The translations under genes were made by a program, and so were the position numbers. From NCBI RefSeq assembly GCF_031759225.1, contig NZ_CP134494.1:2664501-2728500 (forward strand): DNA of 64,000 nt, given 5' to 3'. Source of the DNA: Mesobacillus jeotgali (GTDB lineage Bacteria; Bacillota; Bacilli; Bacillales; Cytobacillaceae). The notes under the pieces were generated by a model, which saw only the letters and a list, made by a program, of their open reading frames with translations, did not search any database and had not been told where the DNA came from. Positions 35,114 through 61,595 of this stretch are shown piece after piece. How positions within the stretch are numbered: position 1 is the stretch's first letter; every line of letters starts with the position of its first letter.

Positions 35114-35193
35114 TTTAAATTTTTTAAAATTAGCCATTTACATTTAGATTCATTTCCCTTAAGATGATTTTGGAAACAACAACTGCATAGTTA

Positions 35194-35278
35194 TACGCAC
35201 TAGGGGAGCTTTTGGCTGAGAAGAACATTGTTCTGACCCTTATCACCCGATCTGGATAATACCAGCGTGGGGAAGTGC
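35194..35278 (+). promoter_or_regulatory. TPP riboswitch aptamer
   Basis: The THI-box order is complete: ACTAGGGGAGC, GGCTGAGA, GACCCTT, ACCCGATCTGGATAATACCA and GCGTGGGGAA. Thiamine pyrophosphate binding should favour the terminator at 35324, shutting off ykoFEDC. An intermediate TTCGTTAT/ATAACGAA helix lies between the aptamer and the terminator and may be part of the switch. Confidence 0.95.
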
Positions 35279-35323
35279 AGGCGAAGCTCTTCGTTATGCC
35301 TCTTTTAAATAACGAATGAATTC

Positions 35324-47167: not shown

Positions 47168-47404
47168 TTACAAATCAACTTGATAGGTCTCATTTTTCTT
47201 AAGATAGAATCTAACGTCATTTCGGCCGGTAAGAATATACCAATCTCTGCCCAGCTCCAGGCGGCAGGAAAGGGTCCGACCATTTCCTAGATGTAAATCA
47301 AACCATTCACCACATCGCATCTTATAGCCGGAGTTCTCTCCCCAAAACACAACCCAACAATCCAATTCTTCATTATAATTCATCTCTTTCCAGCGGGTTT
47401 TCAT
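47168..47404 (-). CDS. DUF5348-like small protein of the transposon
   Basis: The protein has 78 residues; AGGGGGA is six bases before the ATG, which overlaps the ATPase stop (ATGA). A small beta-rich protein (CWVVFWGENSGYKMRCGEWFDL, LELGRDWYILTGRNDVRFYL). I place it in DUF5348 by pattern and by its usual position beside ExeA-type ATPase genes. Function in transposition unknown. Confidence 0.7.
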   Translation of the reverse strand: MKTRWKEMNYNEELDCWVVFWGENSGYKMRCGEWFDLHLGNGRTLSCRLELGRDWYILTGRNDVRFYLKKNETYQVDL

Positions 47405-48201
47405 GAAAGTTCCCCCTGGATGACTTGCTTGATCATATGATCATCAATGATCCTTCGGCCATTTTGTGAACCATAGAGAAGACTATGTGTACAGAGCTTA
47501 TTAATGAGCCTTGCGGCACCACCAGAGAAGCGATGAATCTCGTCAAGTGCTCCATCAGAGAATATTGGTTGATCAACACCGGCATATCGAAGGTGCCTAG
47601 AAACATATTCTTCAACCTGGGCACGGTCGAGATGTCCTAGCTGAAACTGGATATCGATTCTTTGGCGTATGGCTGCGTATGATTGGAGTCGAAGCCGATC
47701 CCATAATTCACTTTGACCGACCAGGATAAGCGCCATCGGGCTTTGCGAATCCATTTTGAAGTTCAGTAGGAAACGAACCTCTTCAAGCATTTCCCGGTCC
47801 AGAAGATGAGCTTCATCCACTACCACTACAGGTTGTAGCCCTCGTATGCCTTTCATTAATTCAATCTCACGATGAAGCTGCCGTTTTGCATCTCCTCGAT
47901 AAAACTTCGCTTCAGAGCCTAACTGTTCCAAAAGACCTTTGTAAAAATGACGAGGCGTTAACTTAGAGTCGGACAGGTAAAGGATATGGAATTTCCCTTT
48001 ATCCAATTTGTCCACAAACTTACGGATGGTTGTGGTCTTTCCAGTACCACTATCCCCACTCAGAACGGCAAAAAGCTGTCTTTCAGCTGTGTACTTCAGC
48101 CTACCAAGGATTTCTTGCACCATGGAGGAATCATACAATTGATCAGTCGGAAGATCTCTGGCGAAAGGAGTGTTGTCCATTTCATAGAATGCTTCAAACA
48201 C
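47401..48201 (-). CDS. AAA ATPase of the transposon (ExeA/TniB/MuB-like)
   Basis: The protein has 266 residues from GTG 48201, which has GGAGG inside the transposase gene; longer forms to 48228 are possible. FYEMDNTPFARDLP starts the ExeA-type domain; Walker A GDSGTGKTT, Walker B VVVVDEAHLL, sensor ALILVGQSELWDRL, and arginine finger region AAIRQRIDIQF. In Mu, Tn7 and Tn402 such ATPases choose the target and activate the transposase. It overlaps the transposase gene. Confidence 0.9.
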   Translation of the reverse strand: MFEAFYEMDNTPFARDLPTDQLYDSSMVQEILGRLKYTAERQLFAVLSGDSGTGKTTTIRKFVDKLDKGKFHILYLSDSKLTPRHFYKGLLEQLGSEAKFYRGDAKRQLHREIELMKGIRGLQPVVVVDEAHLLDREMLEEVRFLLNFKMDSQSPMALILVGQSELWDRLRLQSYAAIRQRIDIQFQLGHLDRAQVEEYVSRHLRYAGVDQPIFSDGALDEIHRFSGGAARLINKLCTHSLLYGSQNGRRIIDDHMIKQVIQGELS

Positions 48202-49549
48202 GGGAATCTTCCTCCTTCCAAACGGCACGGAAGGTCACGGCAGGTTTCTGTTCGGTTAGGCGTTCCTGGTTCTTTCGTTCAGCTGCCTTTAATAGTCTTG
48301 AAGATTCTACACCCTGCACCTGCAGGTGCTCAGGTAATGCAGGACGCTTCCCAGCTCTTTCCCCAATGACAAGTTTCTTGGCTTTCCAAGGAGTATGATC
48401 CTCGAACTCAATGGTAAGCTCCTCGATATTCGCAGGATCATAAACCACCTCAACCTGTCGTCCAATGAAAGCCAGGCCGACCTCATATTTTTGATCCATG
48501 AAACTTATGCATCCTGATTTATCGACTTTCCTTGTTTCACAATGGAGGAATGCATTACTCAAGGTATCAGGATCGATGAACCTAATCGCTTTTTTATCTG
48601 AACGAAATGCCGTTTCCGGGCTGATTTTCTCCCCAAGTGCAGAATGAGGCTTATTCTGATAACACTCTGTGAGCCACACTTGGAAAAGCTCATTCAGACG
48701 ATCAAGTGTATTGGGCTTTTCGATGACAGCCTCACTAATGAATGAATCTATGATTCTATTGAAGCGTTCAATTTTCCCTTTTGATTCAGCTGAGTACGGC
48801 CGTGTGTAAGTAAGGCGGGTGCCTATTTTTGAGCAGGTACGCGACATCCATTTGGTTCGATATTGCTTTCCATTATCAAAATAAACAGCCTCTGGAACAC
48901 CATACTTCTGGATAGCCTGGCGGAAGGCATCCTCGATGATCCTTGAATCCAAGGTAGGATAGAAAGCTGCGTGAAGCACAAACCTGGTGGCGTCATCGAT
49001 AAAGGCGACAAGATACACTTGTTTCTTTATTCCATTCGGACCAATCGGCAAGTAGGGACCATACTTGATATCTGACTGCCAGAGTTGGTTGCGATGTCGC
49101 TTCTGAAATCTTCTGGCAGCTACTCCTGTCTGGGAATAGAGTCGCATATGCCGGGTGCTGTAACCTTTTTCAGCGAGCTTTTCCTGGAGCGTTGATCTTT
49201 TGATCTGCCCTGGTTCAGCCAACCCTTCCCATTCGAGTATCTGTATGATTTGAGCCACGCTCCGGCTCGGCACTTCCTTACGCAGAAGGATTGCCTGTTC
49301 CAATAAATGAGGAGGGATAGCCTCAGACTTTCGAGCACCTTTTCTTCCTTGTGGCTTTAGTCCCCCAAACCCATCTTCCTGAAATTGAGCCAAATATCGC
49401 CTGATGGTTCTTTCTGAAAGACCGCTGGCCTTCGCTATCTGGTCTCTTAATTCCTTTACTTTCCCAGCGTCAAGCCCCTCTGCTAATAAAGGGGATATTA
49501 GCTGAAAACGATGCACTGCCAATTCTTCTGATTTCTTATGATCACTCAT
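48194..49549 (-). CDS. Mu/Tn402-type DDE transposase (rve core)
   Basis: The protein has 451 residues. N-terminal helix-turn-helix regions (SGLSERTIRRYLAQF, RSVAQIIQILEWEG) bind the ends. The integrase core has DDE acids in LWQSDIKYGPY, AVYFDNGKQY and SAESKGKIERFNRI. A C-terminal Mu-type beta-barrel follows (YEVGLAFIGRQVEVVYDP) with a basic tail. GAGGAG precedes the ATG. The coupled ATPase gene and triple end repeats support a Mu/Tn402-like mechanism. Confidence 0.92.
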   Translation of the reverse strand: MSDHKKSEELAVHRFQLISPLLAEGLDAGKVKELRDQIAKASGLSERTIRRYLAQFQEDGFGGLKPQGRKGARKSEAIPPHLLEQAILLRKEVPSRSVAQIIQILEWEGLAEPGQIKRSTLQEKLAEKGYSTRHMRLYSQTGVAARRFQKRHRNQLWQSDIKYGPYLPIGPNGIKKQVYLVAFIDDATRFVLHAAFYPTLDSRIIEDAFRQAIQKYGVPEAVYFDNGKQYRTKWMSRTCSKIGTRLTYTRPYSAESKGKIERFNRIIDSFISEAVIEKPNTLDRLNELFQVWLTECYQNKPHSALGEKISPETAFRSDKKAIRFIDPDTLSNAFLHCETRKVDKSGCISFMDQKYEVGLAFIGRQVEVVYDPANIEELTIEFEDHTPWKAKKLVIGERAGKRPALPEHLQVQGVESSRLLKAAERKNQERLTEQKPAVTFRAVWKEEDSRV

Positions 49550-49593
49550 GATACACTCTCCTCTCTGTGTCTATCACGAGTGTAAATCAGGTG

Positions 49594-50124
49594 CTATTGG
49601 ACAATGAATGCGGAACGGGTATGTATCCATAAATTAATATTTACGATGGGCCGGACAATTCTTGTCAGCCATCCATTGGCATCTCCTGCCAAGCGTCCTA
49701 TCCTTTGAAGTGCGGTCCCTGAACATTTGGACGTGACATCCTGGGGGATATTTCCCTGGTTGGTCCTGATCATGATGGAATTCAAACAGCCAATCCAATA
49801 ATCCACAAATTGATGAAACCAGCCGTGCCATCTCGAAAGAGTGGAATCATCGGCAGCAACAATATGGGCGGACGGGTTCGTAAGAACGTCTTCGATACAT
49901 TCAGCCTCATAGCGTTTATAAGGAATCAATAAATCTGGAAGTTCATGATGGATGGTCTGACAATTGGTGCACTGCAATCTTCGGATGTTATATGTTTTAC
50001 TCTGACCTGTATGATCCTTGGCTTTTCGATTCTTTGTACCTCTAACCAACATGTCTTTACCACAGCATGGGGAAGGAATCCTCCCCGCACCCCTAACTAA
50101 AAACTCCAGTATGAGTGTTTTCAA
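49594..50124 (-). CDS. DUF6431-like zinc-finger protein of the transposon
   Basis: The protein has 176 residues starting at TTG with a weak SD, so the start is uncertain. Two CxxC knuckles (PSPCCGKDMLVRG, RRLQCTNCQTIHHELPDLLIPYKRY) are followed by a helix-turn-helix-like segment (DDSTLSRWHGWFHQF). This combination is the DUF6431 family, found with IS-type elements. It may bind DNA for regulation or target choice; no experimental role known to me. Confidence 0.72.
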   Translation of the reverse strand: MKTLILEFLVRGAGRIPSPCCGKDMLVRGTKNRKAKDHTGQSKTYNIRRLQCTNCQTIHHELPDLLIPYKRYEAECIEDVLTNPSAHIVAADDSTLSRWHGWFHQFVDYWIGCLNSIMIRTNQGNIPQDVTSKCSGTALQRIGRLAGDANGWLTRIVRPIVNINLWIHTRSAFIVQ

Positions 50125-50339: not shown

Positions 50340-50415
50340 CATGAAATTAAAAAAAATCGCTGCTCATGACAATAAACATTAGTCAGAATCAATATAGAAA
50401 GTTCTCAGGACATAA

Positions 50416-50455
50416 AAAAAGCTAAAACCCCTTTTGCGGGATTTTAGCTTTTTAG
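50416..50455 (-). terminator. Terminator of fdhA
   Basis: AAGCTAAAA..CCCG / GGGG..TTTTAGCTT and a seven-T tract on the reverse strand. Confidence 0.85.
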
Positions 50456-50460
50456 CTTTA

Positions 50461-52521
50461 TTATGCAATGGTTTCGACTTTAACGGCACAAGCCTTAAAT
50501 TCTGCAGTACCTGAAATTGGGTCATACTCATTCAGTGTCAGTACGTTCGTTGGCACCTCGGACCAGTGGAAACTCATAAAAACGAGACCTGGTACAACCT
50601 GTTCTGTTATTTTCGCCTTAACTTCAAGAGTACCACGACGTGAACTGACTCTTACGAGATCTCCATCATTAATACCCAGTCGACTTGCATCTTCCTGATG
50701 GATATCCAGGGTTTCTTCAGTTTGTTTGATTTTCACTCCTGCTGCATAGTGTCGAGTTTGGGTATGAGTATTATATGACTCATACCTCCTGCCAGTCGTC
50801 AGGGTGAATGGATATTGTTCATCAGGCTGTTCTAAAGGTGGCGTGAATTCTACTGGCACGAAACTCGAGCGTTTCTTAGTTTCTTTTTCAGCGTGGAATC
50901 TTTCGTGAAGTACTTTCGTGCCAGGGTGATTTTCATCAGGACATGGATAGTGAATTCCATACTCTTTTTCAAGGCGTGGATATGATATGCCTCCATACAT
51001 CTCCCAGGCTAGTTCTCTTACTTCATTCCAGATCTCTTCACTGGAACTATACTCCATTTGATAGCCCATCCTTGTCGATAGTTCACACAATATCTCCCAA
51101 TCTTCTTTCACTCCAGCTTGGGCAGCGACCGCAGTACGTACCCGCTGGACTCTCCTGTCTGTATTCGTGTATGTCCCATCAACTTCCCCCCATGATTTGG
51201 CAGGCAGTACAACATCCGCCATCTCGGCTGTCTCTGTCATGAAAATATCCTGGACGATGAGTAAATCAAGCTTTTCCAATAAGCTTCTTGTATGGTTCAT
51301 ATGAACATCTGCGACTAATGGATTTTCACCTATGCAATACAAGGCCCTGATATCACCTGTTTCAATTTTATCGAAGGTCCTTGTCTGGGTGTCACCGACT
51401 TTTTTGCTGATTTGCATATTCCATGCTTTCTCAAAACGTGCACGGTATTCGTCATTCAATAAGCTGACTGCTCCTGTAAGCTGGTTCGGCAAACATCCCA
51501 TATCTCCGGCACCCTGGACATTATTCTGTCCCCTTAAAGGCATGATGCCAGAACCACTCTTGCCAATGTGGCCAGTAAGCAGAGCAAGATTAGCAATATC
51601 AAATACATTGTTCACTCCACAGTGGTGTTCAGTAATACCAAGTGTGTATGCAATCATAGACTTGCCGGCATTTGCGTATAGACGAGCAACCTCGATGATA
51701 TCTTCTGCCGCCAAACCGGTGATTTCTGCTGAATATTCTGGTGTATAGCGTTCGACCTTTGACAGCAAGGCGTCGAAATCTTCAGTATGCTTGCCAATGA
51801 ACTCCTGGTCATAGAGCTTTTCTTTGATGATAATTCGGATTATTGCGTTGATCAGCGCAATATCCGTTCCGACGTTAATTTGCAGATGCTTATGGGCAGA
51901 CTTGACCATGTCAATTTTTCTTGGATCAATGACAATTATCTTCAGACCGCCCTTGGCAGCCTTTTTCATTCTATTTCCTATGATTGGATGTGCTTCAGTC
52001 GTGTTCGACCCCATAAGTAAAAGCACTTCTGCTTCATCAATATCTTCCAATGTGTTTGTCGGGAAACCGCTTCCAAAAACAGTCGCCAGACCGGCGACAC
52101 TTGGAGCGTGTCAGGTTCGGTTACAGCCATCAATATTATTGCTTCTGATAGCAGTCCTCATGAACTTTTGTGTAATATAATTTGATTCATTGGTAGTCCT
52201 CGCGCATGCAAACATTGATATAGCATCTGGTCCAAAATCAGTTTTGATTTCAGATAATCGGCTTGCCATGTAAGTGTATGCTTCTTCCCATGTCGCCTTT
52301 ACCAACTTCCCTGCTTTCCTGATCATTGGAGTTTTCAATCTTTTTTGGGCATGGACATATTGATAAGCAAAAGCACCTTTTACGCATGTCTGTCCTTTAT
52401 TTACAGGTGCCTCCTTGTCTCCCCTGATTTTCACTATCGTATTATCTACTACATCTAATATTAAACCGCAGCCTGTTCCACAATAACCACAGACCGTCCT
52501 GACCTGGCTAATCGATGACAT
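50461..52521 (-). CDS. fdhA: Selenocysteine-containing formate dehydrogenase (FdhF/FdhA type)
   Basis: The enzyme oxidises formate to CO2 with a molybdopterin cofactor. 686 residues, start fixed by GGAGGGG before ATG 52521. The 4Fe-4S site is VCGYCGTGC plus TCVKG. Codon 137 is UGA (52111-52113) in the context GCNRT-UGA-HAPSVAGL, the exact place of Sec140 in E. coli FdhF (CCARV-U-HGPSVAGL). The frame continues without shift through SNTTEAHPIIG, LALLTGHIGKSGSG, MPLRGQNNVQGAGDMG and FMSFHWSEVPTN to a normal end. A SECIS-like hairpin follows the UGA. Ordinary annotation would split it at 52050/52111. No selA, selB or selC is in the window. Confidence 0.88.
52068..52108 (-). promoter_or_regulatory. 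Bacterial SECIS-like hairpin after the fdhA UGA
   Basis: On the transcript, two bases after UGA, CGCU-CCAA-GU-GUCGCC pairs with GGCGAC-UGUUU-UUGG-A-AGCG around a GGUCU apical loop. The loop sequence and its distance from the UGA (18 bases) are the same as in the E. coli fdhF SECIS that binds SelB. The lower stem has unequal internal loops. Conserved Ala-Gly-Leu codons explain part of the loop match; the pairing arms are the stronger evidence. Confidence 0.75.
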
Positions 52522-52670
52522 AGCTTCCCCTCCGGTAAATATTTTTAATAATTCCCTTAATTTCATAGTAGTCTAAATTTTCATTGCGATGTGAAAAAAT
52601 CATCAATTTTTTTGTCATATTTCCAACATTTTATCGACAAATTCTGATATTTAGAGTGTAATAATAGTCC

Positions 52671-52977: not shown

Positions 52978-55137
52978 CTATGCAGTTTTTGCCGGCAGCA
53001 TAATTTTGAATGTTGTTCCTTTGTTTTGTTCGCTTTCGATATAAACCTTGCCATTGTGGCTTTCAATGATCTTGAAGCTTACCATCAGACCAAGTCCGTT
53101 TCCATTTTTCTTAGTGGTATAAAACGGTTCGCCAATTTTCTTAAGAGTTTCCGGCGGGATTCCTACACCTGTGTCCTTGATGGAAATGACAACATTATCA
53201 TCTTGTATCTCTGTTCTCACTTTCAGATCTCCGCCATCCGGCATTGCTTCGATTCCATTTTTAATGAAATTCAAGAATACTTGCTTCAGACGGTTCTCAT
53301 CGCACTCGATTTGGATAATTTCCTCTGTTGCATCAAAATCCAGCCTGACATTCCTTTTCCTAGCTTCGAATTTCAACATTGATACTACATTTTGGACAAT
53401 CGGAATGATATTCTGTTCCTCAAGCTCGACAGCCTTTGGTTTGGCAAGAACCATGAACTCCTCGACTATATTATTGACTCTGTCAATTTCGTCAAGAATG
53501 ATTTCTATAAACTCCTGGCGTTGTGGATCTGTTTCATCGAGCTGCAGGAATTCAGCATATCCTTTCATCGATGTCAGCGGATTCCTGATTTCATGGGCAA
53601 CACCAGCAGCCAGCTGTCCGACAGCAGCAAGTTTATCCTGGCGGTGCAGCATCTCTTCTGACTTTTTCTTTTCAGTGATGTCATTTCGTATTGCCAGGTA
53701 CTGATATGGCTTGCCATTTTCATTCAGGAAAGGAACAATCGTAGTAGCCACCCAGTAAAACGAACCATCCTTCGCCCTGTTCCGGATATCCCCTTTCCAA
53801 ACCTGGCCAGTACCGATGGTTTTCCAAAGATTCTTAAAGAACTCCTTTGAATGCAATCCGGAATTCAATATGCTATGGTCATTACCAATCAGTTCTTCCC
53901 TGGTGTATTTAGAAATTTCACAGAATTTATCATTCACACTTTTGATAATCCCCTTCTCATCGGTAAAAGCCACGATGGAAGATTGATCAAGCGCAAAATT
54001 AATGTCACTGACTTCTTTCAGTGTTTCTTTCAGGCTTGCTTCCGCCTGTTTTCTTAGCGTAATATCAGAACGAATCGAGACATATTGATATGGCCGTCCC
54101 TTACTATTCAAGAAGGGTACTATTGTCGTATCGACCCAATAATAAGAACCATCCTTCTTCTTATTACGGATCTCCCCCTTCCAAACCTCACCGGAGCCAA
54201 TTGTTTTCCACATTTGCTTAAAAAATTCCTTTGTATGCAAACCTGAATTCAAAATCGAGTGATTCTGGCCTAAAAGTTCACCCTCACTGTAGCCTGAGAT
54301 TTCAATGAACTTTTCATTAACATAAGTAATATTACCTTTAGGGTCAGTTATTGCAACGATCGAAGATGAGTTTAGTGCATCGGTTATATCCTTTAAGTTC
54401 GTATCAGTAACTGCAAGCCTTTTGCTGATTAATGCACTTGAACCGATCAAACCAGCAAGGATGAGTACGGAAATAAAAACAATTAGATAGCTGATTAAGG
54501 ACTCTGGTATTCCGGTCTGCTCAACGATACCGTTCTTCGTATTAATTGAGGATGCTCTTGTTAAAAGGAAATGTCCTTCAGCAATAGCAGCGGTTACGAA
54601 AAGAGCACTTAGCGGTTTAATCCACCCATGGTCTCCTTGAGTGAAGCCTTTCGAAAAGAACAGCATCCAAAAGGAAAAGTAAAATGACACGAATACAAGT
54701 ATAAGAGCAATAATCAGGATCGATGGTTCATAACTGAAATCCAACCTCATTGAGTACATACCCAGGATATGGACAACCAGGACTGCAAGCATCATGAATA
54801 AACTTCCAGCAATCAAATTGCTCTTTTTCAACGTCTTGCCAGTCAGTGTATAAAACGCCATCGCTGTAAAAGAAATAACAAGGATAATGGATAATACGGT
54901 TATTGGAATTCGATACGAAACAGTGCCATTGATATTCATGGCAAGCATTCCAAAGAAGTTCATAACCCAAATCCCAATACCAAGTGAAAATGTCCCACCC
55001 AGAAACAGGAATCTTTTATTACGGTCTGAAGATTTAATAAGACTGAACAAATCAAGTGCTGTATAAGATGACATTACTGTCAATAAGATAGCTGCAAACA
55101 ATAGTATTGGATTGAAGGATAATTCCGGATTATCCAT
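52978..55137 (-). CDS. Membrane PAS-PAS sensor histidine kinase
   Basis: The protein has 719 residues. Seven helices fill residues 10-245 with MHYT-like segments (GIGIWVMNFFGMLAMNI), although His of the motif is Asn here. Two near-identical PAS-PAC units follow (each with NHSILNSGLHxKEFFK..MWKTIG and DGSYYW/DGSFYW), then HisKA with the phospho-His at 515 in VAHEIRNPLTSMKGY and an HATPase with NGIEAMPDGG, DTGVGIP and GNGLGL. This layout is like the KinC/KinE-type sporulation kinases. No response regulator is adjacent, as usual for orphan kinases feeding Spo0F; that role is inferred. Confidence 0.88.
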   Translation of the reverse strand: MDNPELSFNPILLFAAILLTVMSSYTALDLFSLIKSSDRNKRFLFLGGTFSLGIGIWVMNFFGMLAMNINGTVSYRIPITVLSIILVISFTAMAFYTLTGKTLKKSNLIAGSLFMMLAVLVVHILGMYSMRLDFSYEPSILIIALILVFVSFYFSFWMLFFSKGFTQGDHGWIKPLSALFVTAAIAEGHFLLTRASSINTKNGIVEQTGIPESLISYLIVFISVLILAGLIGSSALISKRLAVTDTNLKDITDALNSSSIVAITDPKGNITYVNEKFIEISGYSEGELLGQNHSILNSGLHTKEFFKQMWKTIGSGEVWKGEIRNKKKDGSYYWVDTTIVPFLNSKGRPYQYVSIRSDITLRKQAEASLKETLKEVSDINFALDQSSIVAFTDEKGIIKSVNDKFCEISKYTREELIGNDHSILNSGLHSKEFFKNLWKTIGTGQVWKGDIRNRAKDGSFYWVATTIVPFLNENGKPYQYLAIRNDITEKKKSEEMLHRQDKLAAVGQLAAGVAHEIRNPLTSMKGYAEFLQLDETDPQRQEFIEIILDEIDRVNNIVEEFMVLAKPKAVELEEQNIIPIVQNVVSMLKFEARKRNVRLDFDATEEIIQIECDENRLKQVFLNFIKNGIEAMPDGGDLKVRTEIQDDNVVISIKDTGVGIPPETLKKIGEPFYTTKKNGNGLGLMVSFKIIESHNGKVYIESEQNKGTTFKIMLPAKTA

Positions 55138-60595: not shown

Positions 60596-60632
60596 CAAAA
60601 AAATCCACGGAAATCCGCGGATTTTTTTTAGT
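60596..60632. terminator. Bidirectional terminator
   Basis: AAAAAAATCC.CGGA and TCCG.GGATTTTTTT; lies at the 3' end of the FNT channel gene. Confidence 0.85.
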
Positions 60633-61468
60633 TACATACGTTTTAGTAAATTTTGTCCATACACTGATCGGGCTGCTGTTTGATTCTCCTCGTTTGCAAC
60701 CCCTTTGGCATTCAGGTATACATAAAGAGTGCCGACAAAGAAAGCGCCGCCTATTATATTTCCCAATGTTACAGGCACCAGATTATACACGCTGCCGGCC
60801 ATACTGATGGTTTCAGGATGCGGCACGAGAAGCGCGACCGAAAAGAGTACCATGTTTGCGACACTGTGCTCGAAACCTGACACCACAAAAGCAAAGACCA
60901 AAAGCATTGTGACTCCTATTTTTGCTCCATCTCCTTTAATACTGAATGGAACCCACACAGCAAGGCAAACCAGCCAATTGCAAAGGATTGCTCGAAAGAA
61001 CAGTTGATAAGCCGGGGTGTTCATTTTCATGCTCACAGTTTCCATCATATATTGAGTTTTTTCTGGCGACATAAAGAGTCCCGACAGCATGATTAGAACT
61101 CCAAAAAACAATGCTCCCAATAGGTTTCCTGAATAACATGCAATCCAGTTTTCAATGGTATCTTTCCACGTCGTTGCCTTCTTCAAAGAACTGATCGTCA
61201 TCATCATTGTGTTGCTTGTGAACAATTCTCCCCCGCCATACAAAATCAAGACCAGTGCCAAACCGAAAAAAATCGAACTTGCGATAGGTGTTGCAGCTGA
61301 GTGAGCATCAGAAAAATATTCACCCAACCGATAAGAGACTATAATGCCGAAGCCGATATAAACACCAGCCAGCGCTGCACGCAAGAGGTACTTCCCCTTT
61401 GATTGCATGAGGTATTTCTTCTTTTTTAATGCAGTGGAGATGGCAATTTCGATTGGTTGTTCACTCAT
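60632..61468 (-). CDS. Formate/nitrite transporter (FNT) family channel
   Basis: The protein has 278 residues from Met after GAGGAG; upstream codons in the frame have no SD. Six helices of the FocA/NirC channel: AALAGVYIGFGIIVSY, GGGELFTSNTMMM, WIACYSGNLLGALFFG, AILCNWLVCLAVW, FEHSVANMV, and the last VTLGNIIGGAFFVGTLY. The central His lies in the FEHSVANM block. Could carry formate, nitrite or hydrosulfide. The fdhA gene in the same window makes formate attractive. A cre-like box lies upstream. Confidence 0.88.
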   Translation of the reverse strand: MSEQPIEIAISTALKKKKYLMQSKGKYLLRAALAGVYIGFGIIVSYRLGEYFSDAHSAATPIASSIFFGLALVLILYGGGELFTSNTMMMTISSLKKATTWKDTIENWIACYSGNLLGALFFGVLIMLSGLFMSPEKTQYMMETVSMKMNTPAYQLFFRAILCNWLVCLAVWVPFSIKGDGAKIGVTMLLVFAFVVSGFEHSVANMVLFSVALLVPHPETISMAGSVYNLVPVTLGNIIGGAFFVGTLYVYLNAKGVANEENQTAARSVYGQNLLKRM

Positions 61469-61581
61469 TGTTAAGACTCCTCTATTTGTGAATAAAGTCA
61501 CATTTTTTACTGTTAGATTCATCTTAAACCTCAACTCTAAGTTTGTTAATAGATAACCCCATGAACTGTTTATGTCCATTT

Positions 61582-61595
61582 TCGAAGCGTTTACA
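61582..61595 (-). promoter_or_regulatory. cre-like site upstream of the FNT gene
   Basis: The reverse strand reads TGTAAACGCTTCGA, 13 of 14 matches to TGWAARCGYTWNCW. A weaker second copy (TAAAAACGCTTAGG) is nearby at about 61605-61618. CcpA control is inferred. Confidence 0.55.

Follow-up and report, generated by a model that had tools for sequence, protein, structure and literature searches.

On the minus strand of a stretch of Mesobacillus jeotgali DNA (64,000 nucleotides of contig NZ_CP134494.1, hereafter the window), two open reading frames lie in the same frame and are divided by a UGA codon. Are they two genes, the remains of a broken gene, or a single gene in which UGA is read as selenocysteine (Sec)? 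The last possibility, with a formate dehydrogenase as the product, was the original prediction for this locus, and we assessed it by comparison with related genomes, with the Sec machinery of the same genome, and with known formate dehydrogenases.

Gene, reading frame and family

Translation of the window DNA bore out that only the UGA at 52111-52113 parts the two reverse-strand ORFs: the minus-strand frame 52521-50461 contained exactly one TGA (52113-52111) and was otherwise open, from an ATG at 52521 to a TAA at 50463-50461. The features of the gene are as follows.

50461..52521, minus strand: fdhF-type formate dehydrogenase alpha subunit, 686 amino acids with UGA read as Sec
52111..52113, minus strand: UGA within the frame (Sec137 of the product), at the place that E. 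coli FdhF Sec140 takes in the alignment
52527..52533, minus strand: GGAGGGG, read by eye as a likely ribosome-binding site, 5 nt upstream of the ATG
50414..50450, minus strand: hairpin and T-run after the stop codon, a possible terminator, found by eye and rated weak because the terminator scan did not list the hairpin

The 686-residue read-through product scored 795.4 bits against TIGR01591 (formate dehydrogenase subunit alpha; curated cut-off, 666.25), and three Pfam domains exceeded their cut-offs: PF04879 (Molybdop_Fe4S4), PF00384 (Molybdopterin), and PF01568 (Molydop_binding). In a pairwise alignment with FdhF from E. coli K-12, 274 of 678 aligned residues were identical (~40%), and residue 137 fell on residue 140, the codon of which is TGA in the E. 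coli gene; the residues flanking the recoded codon were GCNRT-U-HAPSVAGL, and the predicted alignment of these flanks with the Sec140 site thus held. Cys11/14/18/46, Lys48, U137, His138, and Arg330 corresponded to Cys8/11/15/42, Lys44, residue 140, His141, and Arg333 of the E. coli enzyme, which we take to be the residues that matter in E. coli FdhF. The features tested for membership of the Sec-containing FdhA/FdhF group were all present: a TIGR01591 score above the cut-off, the molybdopterin domains with an N-terminal [4Fe-4S] motif of four aligned Cys, a catalytic codon that is UGA in frame with His after it, an equivalent of Arg333, and the four sel genes (see below).

Among solved relatives, the highest scores were obtained with 7qv7 (687 bits), 9t1s (620), the formate dehydrogenase of 7bkb (567), and E. 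coli FDH-H, 1aa6 (539). The alignments with the FdhF subunit of HDCR (7qv7) and the F420-linked formate dehydrogenase (9t1s) spanned nearly the whole length, with Cys and X, respectively, at the Sec position. The protein resembled E. coli FDH-H in size class, in the UGA at the catalytic codon, and in the equivalents of the active-site residues, and differed from it in the identity of ~40% and in a genome without a match to NiFe hydrogenase (see below). Bacterial FdhA, as described by Zhang et al. 2006 (PMC1794560) and Peng et al. 2016 (PMC5029168), is the same family, and the excerpts of both papers available to us made no mention of Mesobacillus, Neobacillus, or clade-wide SelA. Judged by these features, the Mesobacillus FdhF is a member of the already known bacterial family of Sec formate dehydrogenases. 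We put at about 0.97 the probability that a single gene at this locus encodes a formate dehydrogenase dependent on molybdopterin and a [4Fe-4S] cluster, with selenocysteine as its predicted catalytic residue. The call is well supported by comparison, and enzyme activity and Sec content are predicted from sequence.

Conservation of the UGA codon and of the hairpin that follows it

Of 21 genomes in the genus, that of the window included, 20 contained an orthologue with exactly one TGA, at 80-100% identity; the sole genome without it was 66% complete. Across the family, FdhF matches at E <= 1e-200 were present in 129 of 193 genomes, and all 140 of these matches (per-genome counts summed by hand, 11 genomes having two) contained one TGA, with an extra TAG in one of them. 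In this survey, only 6 candidates were scored in most genomes, the presence of TGA was counted without aligning its codon position, and the threshold would hide more distant Cys forms. The position was checked codon by codon in 105 loci, which included the window's own (L050) and took some genomes twice, once from each of two collections: TGA was found in 98 (89 orthologues, 7 copies of a 51-52%-identical paralogue, and 2 Megasphaera loci), and TGC or TGT in 7, all of them Megasphaera/Veillonella relatives with 39-41% identity. The dN/dS values before the UGA were 0.105, 0.079, 0.055, and 0.040 (4 of 6 relatives computable), and those after it were 0.051 and 0.031 (2 of 6, dS being saturated in the rest).

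Two side observations were made among these loci. A second FdhF paralogue with UGA (51-54% identity) occurred in some genomes of the family (L071-L077), and a search of the window's genome returned no such match. Records titled Chryseobacterium sp., Pseudomonas sp., and Paenibacillus sp. (L084, L125, and L095) contained fdhF that was 75-88% identical, and some of these titles are probably wrong.

A hairpin lies directly 3' of the UGA.

52082..52098, minus strand: SECIS upper hairpin, 6-bp stem GUCGCC/GGCGAC, apical loop GGUCU
52069..52107, minus strand: lower stem beneath that hairpin, more weakly kept (87% paired cells among relatives)

The hairpin started 12 nt downstream of the UGA, and the GGUCU loop 18 nt downstream of it, as in E. 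coli fdhF, in which the SECIS is likewise directly 3' of the codon. Since the fold of the single sequence gave weak evidence (z = -1.99, with 8 of 200 shuffles folding equally well, i.e., moderate evidence alone), we relied on comparative counts. These were made on 85 distinct TGA-containing sequences, consisting of 78 orthologues and 7 paralogues (bits >= 700) and leaving out the 7 Cys loci and the 2 Megasphaera TGA loci, the latter of which lacked U24. The six pairs of the upper stem were standard in 510 of 510 cells, while only 9-67% of stem cells were standard when the partner was slid by 1-3 bases, and the GGUCU loop was invariant (85/85); the hairpin originally proposed from the resemblance to the fdhF SECIS was thereby confirmed. 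With the U of UGA numbered as column 1, columns 18/30 were C-G in 37 sequences, U-A in 46, and U-G in 2, with no mismatch. These columns are third codon positions and changed ~7 times on a FastTree tree inferred from the remainder of the gene, and in 10,000 letter shuffles at most 74 of the 85 sequences were paired. Columns 19/29 were G-C in 78 sequences and A-U in 7, the latter being the paralogues. The lower stem, on the other hand, was not upheld: columns 9/43 and 12/39 failed often.

Suppression of synonymous change was found at the same place. Among the 78 distinct orthologues (drawn from the 105 loci through 89 orthologues with bits >= 880), relative synonymous diversity had a mean of 0.88 over 405 usable codons, and of all 476 windows of 16 codons, the three that started from codons 137-139 had the lowest values. 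Ala-Gly-Leu was encoded by GCC GGT CTG in 78/78. When E. coli fdhF and fdnG were added in a 12-row alignment, the 6-bp stem was 90.3% paired; the percentage paired, the covariation score, and the number of cells changed on both sides beat all 500 shuffles, and the two other of the five measures were reached by 80 and 497 of 500 shuffles. By these counts, the hairpin that adjoins the UGA on its 3' side is conserved and covarying and is real beyond chance.

A covariance model of the hairpin was used to search the genome, 150 of 1208 first-look candidates being scored. Strong matches were limited to fdhF and fdnG, both of which were in the training set, and three further matches had E values of 0.36-9.3. 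The model cannot be expected to catch SECIS elements of other shapes, such as those of selD and the SelW-like gene described below, and the search does not amount to a full selenoproteome. A pattern scan listed the hairpin 52082-52098 (minus strand), together with a T-run, as a terminator-like site; a SECIS element may be taken for a terminator in scans of this kind.

One detail of the fold differed from the E. coli element. According to an excerpt of PMC8659212, U17 of the E. coli SECIS must be bulged, and the UGA is no longer read when U17 or G23 is mutated. In the 85 sequences, U17, G23, and U24 were each invariant, and the stem-loop immediately 3' of the UGA carried G23 and U24 in its apical loop, as in the E. 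coli fdhF type. The bulged U17 of that type was not seen: U17 stood opposite A31 (84 sequences) or G31 (1) and was paired in the predicted fold, with the Mesobacillus upper stem predicted as 6 uninterrupted pairs, a difference that is by prediction only. In E. coli fdhF and in fdnG of the present genome, U occupies columns 17 and 18 alike, and the program's folds left column 18 unpaired; since U17 and U18 are interchangeable there, the unpaired column 18 was taken as the same bulge. The fdhF of this clade might tentatively be regarded as a second SECIS architecture with a compact 6-bp stem, a 5-nt loop, and a base-paired U17, a residue that in E. coli is bulged and required by SelB, although we consider this doubtful. 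If it were true, one SelB would accept two shapes, the paired-U17 hairpin of fdhF and the bulge-type hairpin of fdnG. The paired-U17 hairpin would offer a simple test of the recognition requirements of SelB, and it is the only part of the present system that may be new.

Predicted selenocysteine use in the genome and its relatives

The original prediction held that the organism should own selA, selB, selC, and selD, and proposed a search for them; in the genome, a single contig of 4.63 Mb that is 99.96% complete, all were found, and the refuting condition attached to the prediction, a genome devoid of sel genes, did not apply. The bit scores (cut-offs) were 561 (268) for selA with TIGR00474, 368 (242) for selB with TIGR00475, and 400 (125) for selD with TIGR00476. 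The selB gene lies ~6 kb before the start of the window, and its product carries SelB winged-helix domains 2 and 3. For tRNA-Sec, one Rfam match was over the threshold (58.3 bits versus 47), with 10 more below it, and ARAGORN called this match tRNA-SeC with anticodon tca. As in established bacterial Sec biology, SelD would supply selenophosphate and SelA would turn Ser-tRNA-Sec into Sec-tRNA-Sec; SelB would bind both Sec-tRNA-Sec and the SECIS hairpin, and the ribosome would place Sec at the UGA rather than terminate.

Two further UGA-containing genes were noticed near one another. The selD gene is itself one (KAGUGCKISP, codon 18; L002:10866-11918, plus strand; about 2446865-2447917 of C1), and standard ORF calling drops its N-terminus. 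Between selA and selD, a protein of 80 residues from the SelT/SelW/SelH family (L002:10488-10730, minus strand) has a CMQU (CXXU) motif with an in-frame UGA, and both TIGR02174 and PF10262 exceeded their cut-offs.

Other readings of the UGA have to be weighed against a Sec codon. The two separate ORFs returned by standard ORF calling could reflect an error in sequencing or a nonsense mutation peculiar to this genome, the locus then being a pseudogene or the true codon TGC or TGT. Independent genomes have already refuted this reading, to which we attach a negligible probability: one TGA was present in nearly all genomes of the genus and in every close family match, TGA occupied this exact codon in the 89 orthologous loci, the window's included, and purifying selection acted on both sides of the UGA, with no other stop in the window's copy. 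If the locus instead encoded two proteins, a 136-residue iron-sulfur piece ending at the UGA and a second piece from a downstream TTG (52050), both would be open in frame, as observed, and pieces like the second are listed in databases for relatives. We rejected this highly improbable arrangement because the residues from the UGA to the TTG were largely conserved as protein and the covarying hairpin, with its suppressed synonymous change, directly follows the UGA; moreover, the [4Fe-4S] cysteines would be parted from the active site.

An open frame through the UGA is also compatible with the insertion of a standard amino acid (e.g., Trp), whether through near-cognate suppression or an altered genetic code. 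Against this, UGA stops other genes here, including selD, the homologues compared have Cys or a UGA codon at this position rather than Trp (one solved chain has X), and the complete Sec gene set is in the genome; this reading was rejected on these grounds, its probability being minute. Sec insertion into a single formate dehydrogenase was retained, and the last alternative, which concerns the role of this selenoprotein, is considered together with the genomic context below.

Sec use in relatives, the nearest named ones of which are Mesobacillus species, was judged from SelA alone. Reading of the match table gave a strong SelA in 172 of 193 family genomes, i.e., the 182 genomes with a match minus 10 with a best E above 1e-30 (G084, G108, G168, G172, G173, G174, G176, G177, G179, and G183), and the assumption that selenoproteins are uncommon in Bacillaceae failed in this clade. 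Among genomes drawn from the order, a strong SelA was found in 139 of 299. The clade of Mesobacillus, Neobacillus, and their kin provides Gram-positive hosts that are in culture and nearly all of which carry SelA. No bacterial selenoprotein family is commoner than FdhA (822 organisms and 1276 proteins; Table 3 of PMC5029168), and 3 selenoprotein families with 3 selenoproteins were counted for Bacillales in 2006 (Table 2 of PMC1794560). No report combining Mesobacillus or Neobacillus with selenocysteine was found in the open-access literature, which only weakly suggests that none has been published.

By hand counts, FdhF was present in 127 of the 172 genomes with a strong SelA versus 2 of the 21 without (Fisher p = 1e-8, uncorrected for kinship), and both of the latter two genomes were about 80% complete. 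Since 45 of the 172 had no FdhF orthologue at E <= 1e-200, the Sec machinery is not kept for FdhF alone. Whether by assembly error or by real loss, the SelA match was broken in the assemblies of 3 of 21 genomes of the genus, by internal stops in G001 and G009 (L036 and L037) and into two pieces in the one-contig G020 (G020:C1:1845726-1846827); G001 and G020 still have fdhF with TGA. In some genomes of the family (G108, G084, and the genus g20), SelA matches were weak or absent, and Sec decoding may have been lost in a subclade.

Genomic context, role and annotation

Two neighbors of fdhF in the window are relevant to its role.

52978..55137, minus strand: MHYT-PAS-PAS histidine kinase, upstream of fdhF, a neighbor in 61 of 70 loci
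60632..61588, minus strand: formate/nitrite transporter family (FNT) protein, PF01226 at 235 bits, start codon uncertain

The survey of neighbors covered 70 loci, some with cut flanks, and its 30 largest clusters, of which only the kinase was identified by Pfam. ORFs resembling MFS transporters followed fdhF in many relatives (35 and 32 of 70 loci) and appear NarK-like by reading only. In the window, a mobile element lies directly after fdhF (rve transposase, AAA/TniB-like, and DUF6431; 47401-50124, minus strand). The FNT protein may supply formate to FdhF.

A lone subunit of the FdhF type, of similar size and with the identity to E. coli FdhF given above, could be taken to play the part of E. 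coli FDH-H in formate hydrogenlyase. Such a role was rejected and is considered very unlikely: PF00374, the large subunit of NiFe hydrogenase, had no match in the genome under conditions in which the E. coli control was positive (the search was confined to NiFe, as opposed to FeFe, hydrogenases), so that the membrane partner is missing and FdhF is not part of a formate hydrogenlyase of the E. coli type. The same result sets the locus apart from 7qv7, a structure whose name assigns it to a hydrogen-dependent CO2 reductase. The Pfam scan found no TAT signal in FdhF; the selenoprotein would oxidize formate in the cytoplasm, and the electrons would go to a partner other than a NiFe hydrogenase. 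A separate enzyme of the FDH-N type is encoded at about 4.51 Mb, with a TAT signal, its own UGA, Fe-S and cytochrome b subunits, and FdhD. This fdhD and fdnGHI-like set occupies L158:5837-11207 (minus strand); it has a GGUCU hairpin, and its UGA is codon 192 when numbering starts from L158:10351.

The expectation that standard annotation breaks such genes proved correct for relatives. The best 120 of 8000 scored database proteins were all pieces of 482-541 amino acids (70-79% query coverage), among which there was no full-length record, which would be expected to score higher. One piece of 539 amino acids bears the NCBI name 'formate dehydrogenase H subunit alpha, selenocysteine-containing'. 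These 120 entries were without the N-terminal part, which contains the [4Fe-4S] motif and the catalytic residue, and the formate metabolism of these bacteria is therefore easily misread.

Elsewhere in the window, a TPP riboswitch (35192-35290, plus strand; 81 bits) was the sole match over the Rfam gathering threshold, and the ORFs after it include, by reading, a transporter set.
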